Both the position numbers and the translations under genes were made by a program. A DNA stretch of 64,000 nt from Kribbella flavida DSM 17836 (GTDB lineage Bacteria; Actinomycetota; Actinomycetes; Propionibacteriales; Kribbellaceae). Numbering within the stretch: position 1 is the first letter of the stretch; each line of letters begins with the position of its first letter. Of this stretch, positions 629 through 2,932 are shown in pieces. The notes under the pieces are model-generated. The model made no database searches, was not told the origin of the DNA, and was given only the letters and a program-made list of their open reading frames with translations. The DNA lies in the NCBI RefSeq assembly GCF_000024345.1, contig NC_013729.1, positions 248,001-312,000 of the forward strand, in the 5' to 3' direction.

Positions 629-976
629 ATGAAGTACCTCGTACTGATCTACGGCACCACCGACGACACCTGGACCGGCTCGGACGACGACATCGCGGCC
701 GTCCGGGCGCTGACCGAGCTCAAGCGCGACCTGACCGGCACGGGTGAGCTGGTCAGCTCCGAAGGTCTGAGCTACCCCAGCTCGGGCCGGGTGGTCCAGG
801 TCCGCGACGGCGTCCGGGTGGTCACCGACGGGCCGTTCGGCGAGGCGAAGGAACAGATCGCCGGCTACTTCATGGTCGACGCCTCCGACGAGCGCGCCCA
901 AGAAATCGCCGGCCAGGTCTCCCGCATCGTCGGCGACCGCGTCGAACTGCGCGGGACGCTGCTCGCCGCGCCCTGA
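629..976 (+). CDS. YCII/DGPF-domain protein
   Basis: 115 residues forming a single YCII-related (DGPF) domain. The N-terminus MKYLVLIYGT and the signature TDGPFGEAKEQIAGYF (about residues 71-86) are diagnostic. The fold is a small ferredoxin-like dimer; the biochemical role is unknown. Such proteins are commonly encoded beside ECF42 sigma factors, and a paralogue coupled to one lies at 2567. This copy stands alone, tail to tail with the MFS gene at 987. No TGTCGA-type promoter like those at 2449-2513 is visible upstream. The start at 629 gives the standard family N-terminus. Confidence 0.88.
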   Translation: MKYLVLIYGTTDDTWTGSDDDIAAVRALTELKRDLTGTGELVSSEGLSYPSSGRVVQVRDGVRVVTDGPFGEAKEQIAGYFMVDASDERAQEIAGQVSRIVGDRVELRGTLLAAP

Positions 977-2396: not shown

Positions 2397-2448
2397 GGGT
2401 CCTCCAGTACGGCGGGGCGCCCAGGCCGGGCGCCGCTCGCCGGGGACG

Positions 2449-2475
2449 TCGAGGCCGGGGTGGGCCGGTTCGACA
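2449..2475 (-). promoter_or_regulatory. ECF42-like promoter reading into the MFS gene
   Basis: Read on the minus strand: TGTCGA (2475-2470), a 17-nt spacer, then CGACG (2452-2448). This matches the TGTCGA / CGA(T)C pattern I recall for ECF42 targets in Streptomyces. The start codon of the exporter lies about 50 nt downstream. The same arrangement faces the other way at 2486-2513. Confidence 0.6.
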
Positions 2476-2485
2476 TCGCGCCGGG

Positions 2486-2513
2486 TGTCGAGAACGGCGG
2501 GTCCGGATTCGAC
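2486..2513 (+). promoter_or_regulatory. ECF42-like promoter reading into YCII-sigma operon
   Basis: TGTCGA at 2486-2491, an 18-nt spacer, and CGAC at 2510-2513, followed by GT as in the divergent copy. The position suits autoregulation of the YCII-ECF42 pair, whose first start codon lies about 50 nt downstream. Confidence 0.65.
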
Positions 2514-2566
2514 GTACCGGGTGAGAGGGGGTCACAGGGGCCCTAACGACCGTCAGGATGGTGACC

Positions 2567-2932
2567 GTGAAGTACATGCTGCTGATCTACTCCAACCCGG
2601 AGAGCTGGGCGTCCCTGTCCGCCGAGCAGCGGGACGACCTCACCCGCGCCCACCAGGAGCTGGCCACCGAACTGACCGAGCAGGGCCTGCTGGTGAGCTC
2701 TGCCGGACTGGCCGACCCGATCACCACCCGCACGGTCTCGATCGGCGACGACAACTCCCGCACCACCACCGACGGCCCGTACGCCGAGGCCAAGGAGCAC
2801 CTGGCCGGGTTCTACCTGGTGGAGTGCGAGGACATCGACCAGGCCATCGGGTACGCCGCGCGAATGCCGGACGCCCAGTACGTCGCGGTGGAGGTGCGGC
2901 CGGTGATGGACACCTCCGGGCTGGAGATGTGA
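2567..2932 (+). CDS. YCII/DGPF-domain protein coupled to ECF42 sigma
   Basis: About 121 residues forming a YCII/DGPF domain: N-terminus MKYMLLIYSN and signature TDGPYAEAKEHLAGFYLVE. I chose GTG 2567 because it gives the standard family N-terminus and has AGGA at 2554-2557; ATG 2558 would add three residues. The stop overlaps the start of the sigma gene (GTGA, 2929-2932), so translation is probably coupled. This gene order, DGPF protein then ECF42, is the conserved context of the sigma group. DGPF proteins have been considered possible partners or targets of ECF42, but their biochemical role is unresolved. Confidence 0.88.
   Translation: MKYMLLIYSNPESWASLSAEQRDDLTRAHQELATELTEQGLLVSSAGLADPITTRTVSIGDDNSRTTTDGPYAEAKEHLAGFYLVECEDIDQAIGYAARMPDAQYVAVEVRPVMDTSGLEM

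Follow-up and report, generated by a model that had tools for sequence, protein, structure and literature searches.

Work on ECF42 sigma factors in Streptomyces venezuelae reportedly placed a promoter of the TGTCGA/CGA(T)C type before the sigma factor operon. Further features of the group, such as the YCII gene and the TPR extension, have been summarized together with the S. venezuelae members Sven_0747, Sven_4377, and Sven_7131 (PMC8999054). The promoters of RpoE10, the ECF42 member of Sinorhizobium meliloti, were mapped by their 5' ends and read TGTCGG-N17-CGTC (PMC6180224). Overexpression of RpoE10 did not activate the promoter of its own operon (PMC6180224), and autoregulation is therefore not universal in ECF42. 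ECF-10 of Pseudomonas putida also belongs to this group (PMC8999054); its knockout was 2-4-fold more antibiotic-resistant, i.e., ECF-10 makes the cells more sensitive (PMC4613276).

Here, we analyzed a locus from the soil bacterium Kribbella flavida DSM 17836 in which a YCII-domain gene and the gene for a stress-type (ECF42) sigma factor lie divergent to a gene for an MFS transporter (Table 1); "the window" denotes the whole stretch of 64,000 nucleotides that was analyzed. As in the S. venezuelae systems, the YCII gene is found just upstream of the sigma factor, which carries a C-terminal TPR extension, and the operon has a promoter of the TGTCGA/CGA(T)C type. Unlike in those systems, a second box faces the divergent MFS gene, the spacer is 17 or 18 nt long, and the -10 element is extended to CGACGT. 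The YCII-ECF42 gene pair and the promoter architecture likewise match those of RpoE10, whose known targets are conserved hypothetical proteins, some of them glyoxalase-like, and include no transporter, in contrast to the MFS gene in Kribbella (PMC6180224). With ECF-10 the locus shares the sigma factor group, and ECF-10 is tied to antibiotic susceptibility, but with a sign opposite to that of simple pump activation (PMC4613276); since ECF-10 makes cells drug-sensitive, the sign of its antibiotic effect is not transferable to Kribbella. The sigma factor, the YCII gene, and the promoter code are thus of known kinds and the new element is the divergent exporter promoter, although a link between ECF42 and MFS genes has possibly been noted in earlier primary papers.

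Table 1. Genes, promoter elements, and a predicted leader structure at the YCII-ECF42 locus (positions in the window)
Feature	Position	Strand	Basis and conservation
Second YCII-domain gene, beside the MFS 3' end	629..976	+	Pfam YCII E=1.3e-08
MFS transporter, DHA2/EmrB-like, 469 aa	987..2396	-	Pfam MFS_1 (PF07690) E=1.6e-50
Predicted hairpin in MFS 5' leader, between promoter and start codon	2416..2434	-	Kept in 32/33 genomes
MFS-facing -10 element CGACGT, 18-nt spacer	2446..2451	-	Sequence; CGACGT in 33/33; changed in MFS-less G036 (L116)
MFS-facing -35 element TGTCGA	2470..2475	-	Read from sequence; TGTCGA in 33/33 Kribbella genomes with divergent MFS gene
YCII-ECF42 promoter -35 element TGTCGA	2486..2491	+	Sequence; GTCGA in 38/38, TGTCGA in 35/38 genomes
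YCII-ECF42 promoter -10 element CGACGT, 18-nt spacer	2510..2515	+	Sequence; CGACGT in 38/38 genomes
YCII-domain (DGPF-type) protein	2558..2932	+	Pfam YCII E=6.1e-18; alternative start GTG 2567
ECF42-type sigma factor, 411 aa	2929..4164	+	Sigma70_r2, Sigma70_r4_2, DUF6596 (Pfam)

The earlier note had assigned the sigma factor to ECF42, and the DUF6596 match in Pfam, the upstream YCII gene, and the TPR-like extension bear this out. Sigma70_r2 covers residues 10-73 and Sigma70_r4_2 residues 111-161 with nothing between them, so that the sigma3 region is absent. An AlphaFold2 model (mean pLDDT 87) has a helical C-terminal extension, and its best matches in the PDB are mostly TPR proteins, e.g., 2pl2 and 4abn, with E of only about 0.02. 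Pfam recognized no anti-sigma gene next to the sigma factor gene, which is flanked by genes for the YCII protein, the MFS transporter, and a protein of 237 aa that has no Pfam match. With this domain layout, extension, neighborhood, and promoter motif, the protein is a sigma factor of the ECF42 type. The YCII-sigma gene pair was found in 38/38 Kribbella genomes, and because the start of the sigma gene overlaps the stop of the YCII gene, the two are probably translationally coupled.

Over its full length the transporter resembles the DHA2 exporters EfpA, QacA, and EmrB, and drug export is predicted for it; its relatives of solved structure in the PDB are EfpA (7.9e-55), a QacA-type antiseptic resistance protein (4.8e-39), and EmrB (3.8e-29). 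It scores 218.7 bits against TIGR00711, whose curated cut-off lies just above at 230.2 bits, and with none of the NCBIfam efflux models among the matches listed does it reach the curated cut-off. At its 3' end, the second YCII-domain gene has the same orientation as the MFS gene in one Kribbella clade and the opposite one in another, and in the window it is preceded by a small hydrophobic open reading frame (344-500).

Divergent TGTCGA/CGACG boxes facing the MFS gene and the YCII-ECF42 operon, as the earlier note had described them, are both present: TGTCGA-N18-CGACGT occurs on both strands, back to back, in the 170-bp intergenic region that separates the two. The box facing the operon was confirmed as given (2486-2515), while the spacer of the MFS-facing box, put at 17 nt in that note, is 18 nt long (2475-2446, minus strand), and the interval 2449-2513 clips both -10 elements by 2-3 nt. 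A distance of about 50 nt had been proposed between each box and its gene. This agrees with the leftward box, about 50 nt from the MFS ATG (2396), whereas the rightward box lies 42 nt from the YCII ATG (2558) and 51 nt from the alternative GTG start (2567). No sigma-70-type promoter was found in the intergenic region. The TGTCGA/CGA(T)C code itself, which the note had named as the ECF42 pattern, agrees with the 5'-mapped RpoE10 promoters of S. meliloti (PMC6180224).

Genome-wide motif counts were obtained by exact-pattern searches. The bare motif was rejected as evidence: the genome has 854 matches to TGTCGA-N15-19-CGWC, compared to 366 for a reversed control pattern. The window contains 4 copies of TGTCGA-N15-20-CGACG where 1.11 would be expected, no more than a mild enrichment for the motif by itself, and one of the two copies outside the intergenic region (7490) falls within a long open reading frame resembling an aldo/keto reductase. 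The 7.58-Mb genome has 29 copies of the exact pattern TGTCGA-N17-18-CGACGT and 0 of the reversed control, and more than half of the 29, judged from their flanks, are apparently located within coding sequence. Given how frequent the bare motif is in this GC-rich genome, evidence can come only from position and conservation, and the pair was therefore tested by conservation. That two divergent, correctly placed copies share a single 170-bp intergenic region is not due to chance, since dinucleotide shuffles produced a box at 0.0009 per strand (0.09% of strands) and both boxes in 0/9,900 cases.

Including the window genome, the comparison covered 38 Kribbella genomes, i.e., 37 relatives in addition to our own, and an ortholog of the sigma factor with 79-92% identity was found in all 37 relatives. 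The divergent MFS gene is kept in 33/38 genomes, and all 33 have a leftward TGTCGA-N17/18-CGACG whose distance to the aligned MFS start is 40-70 nt. The rightward box occurs in 38/38, with TGTCGA in 35 and a first-base variant in the other 3. A pattern search was used to find the boxes, which accounts for part of their near-100% identity; the finding is their presence in every genome. Spacers of equal length are only about 52-54% identical between species while the boxes are near-invariant, and box conservation therefore does not merely reflect young DNA. The boxes thereby passed the refutation test of the earlier note, which asked whether they are conserved where relatives share the gene order. 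Across the genus the two -35 elements are separated by 4 to 74 bp, except in G008 (L107), where extra sequence has moved the boxes to a distance of 179 bp without detaching either from its gene, so that the two boxes must be regarded as separate units, i.e., separate promoters. The insert in G008, about 170 bp long with inverted repeats, resembles a small mobile element.

The GTCG/CGAC inverted symmetry of each box, with half-sites about two helical turns apart, would also fit operators of a dimeric repressor or activator (a GTCG-N-CGAC dyad) rather than sigma factor contacts. We consider this very improbable, as the flanking conserved bases are asymmetric (T-GTCGA versus CGAC-GT), spacings of 17 and 18 nt are both tolerated, there is one box per gene at promoter distance, and no transcription-factor gene lies between or adjoining the pair; moreover, the mapped ECF42 promoters of S. 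meliloti have CGTC at the same place, which breaks the dyad (PMC6180224).

Five genomes lack the MFS gene (G001, G004, G019, G031, and G036). An intact leftward box is present in 0/5 of them, being either absent or decayed, whereas the rightward box is kept in 5/5; since the leftward box is lost or decayed together with the MFS gene, the leftward promoter appears to serve that gene. When the search for the leftward box was relaxed in these genomes, all matches were to the complementary strand of the rightward promoter, with one exception, the decayed box of G036 (L116), in which TGTCGA is retained, the -10 element is changed, and an apparent remnant of the MFS 3' end is still visible. In a tree of YCII and sigma sequences the MFS-less genomes comprise the early branch G031, a clade of G001, G004, and G019, and the single G036, whose sister G035 carries the MFS gene. 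The tree requires three changes of MFS presence, and its simplest reading includes two losses inside the genus. Given that the motif recurs in the genome, apparently often inside genes, one could suppose that only the YCII-ECF42 promoter is functional and that the MFS-facing box is a coincidence or a relic, but its presence in 33/33 genomes with and 0/5 without the MFS gene, despite a spacer identity of about 54%, makes this extremely unlikely. The comparison thus supports the proposal that the exporter is a target of the sigma factor and that the operon is autoregulated, as the earlier note had put forward.

The hairpin predicted in the MFS leader follows the promoter and is itself followed by a conserved GTACTGGAG stretch ahead of the start codon, and one of its pairs shows a compensatory change, being A-U in 27 genomes and G-C in 5. 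In the YCII leader (2516-2557, plus strand) about 30 nt directly after the -10 element are conserved, with ACCGGGTGAGAGGGGGTCACAGCGGCCTCC in most species; the ends of this stretch could pair in most species, and G001, G004, and G031 lack it or have a different sequence.

We consider it likely, based on these comparisons, that the two boxes are independent ECF42-type promoters and that the ECF42 sigma factor encoded at the locus reads both, serving the YCII-sigma operon and the exporter. The genome does, however, encode 16 ECF42-type (DUF6596) sigma factors (L047-L062), 15 besides this one, the two closest paralogs being 65% and 64% identical to it. One or both promoters might therefore be read by a paralogous ECF42 or shared by several, in which case the neighboring sigma factor would not be the sole controller, and further TGTCGA-N17-CGACGT sites before genes without one of these ECF42 genes as a neighbor point in the same direction. 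Among distant paralogs (<50% identity), however, the -10 element is mostly of the CGT type where a box is visible, with the exception of one divergent YCII gene (L048) that has CGAC, whereas nearly all close relatives of this sigma factor (>60%) have CGAC. Because the boxes and this sigma gene have been inherited together throughout the genus and the distant paralogs seem mostly of the CGT type, control by a paralog is less likely, and we regard it as improbable.

The remote sites in the same genome (L167, L171, L176, L181, L186, L187, and L188), which mostly have GGCTCCGACGT at their end, are found at a distance from the 16 ECF42 genes, ahead of genes for YCII, glyoxalase-type, DUF899, alpha/beta hydrolase, and MDMPI proteins, and suggest a candidate wider regulon. 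A second divergent pair with the same promoter type (L163, 1371174-1371340 in the genome) lies between an alpha/beta hydrolase gene and an apparent YCII start, with no DUF6596 sigma gene adjoining.

Outside Kribbella, at least 29/87 ECF42 loci have TGTCG[AG]-N16-18-CG[AT]C in the 200 nt ahead of the operon, a lower bound, as several class-level loci were in reverse orientation and not properly scored. All but one of these 29 boxes have N17-CGAC, for the most part 64-79 nt upstream of the YCII start, and the boxed loci are from Actinomycetota, Acidobacteriota, and Myxococcota. A search of 293 genomes from the order (E<=1e-120) gave no ortholog of the MFS protein outside Kribbella, and this exporter arrangement is therefore genus-specific, with separate cases elsewhere. 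In Kitasatospora sp. GP82 and Saccharothrix sp. ST-888 the divergent gene encodes a DHA2 MFS transporter, about 30% identical to that of the window, with its own TGTCGA-N17-CGACGT, and in L245 the MFS is 52% identical and the boxes are weaker. A gene for DUF899 is divergent in Hamadaea and a YjbR-like gene (below the Pfam cut-off) in Amycolatopsis suaedae, each with a box. The Saccharothrix sp. ST-888 record is likely mislabeled, its locus being nearly identical to that of Kitasatospora sp. GP82, and the same holds for the Streptomyces sp. SID13031 record, which matches a genome of the genus Kribbella (G027).

We therefore describe a conserved ECF42 locus that is probably autoregulated and whose regulon very probably includes a predicted efflux pump. 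RNA polymerase with the ECF42 sigma factor would read the rightward promoter and thereby its own YCII-sigma operon, resulting in positive autoregulation, while the same holoenzyme would read the leftward promoter and induce the DHA2-type exporter coordinately. The signal may act through the C-terminal TPR extension of the sigma factor, possibly with participation of the YCII protein, and on its arrival the cell would make more sigma factor and more pump. More tentatively, and with some doubt on our part, the TPR-extended sigma factor could itself be the sensor of a self-contained efflux switch, in which the sigma factor is activated by a toxic compound, perhaps via the YCII protein, and in turn induces its own synthesis and that of an exporter, with different exporters having come under the same code more than once (in Kribbella and in Kitasatospora/Saccharothrix ST-888). 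If true, this would be a direct gene-level link of ECF42 to drug efflux.

The ECF42 group is widespread, and most of the targets known for it are small proteins of unknown function; a DHA2-type exporter would be a target with an interpretable function, and the extension of this sigma group to a functional target is well supported by the comparative data. An exporter that shares this promoter code throughout a genus would offer a direct handle, as the substrates of the pump become candidate inducers. The locus further suggests that genes divergent from YCII-ECF42 operons, such as the MFS, DUF899, and YjbR-type genes with their own boxes, may be read as candidate members of the regulon.
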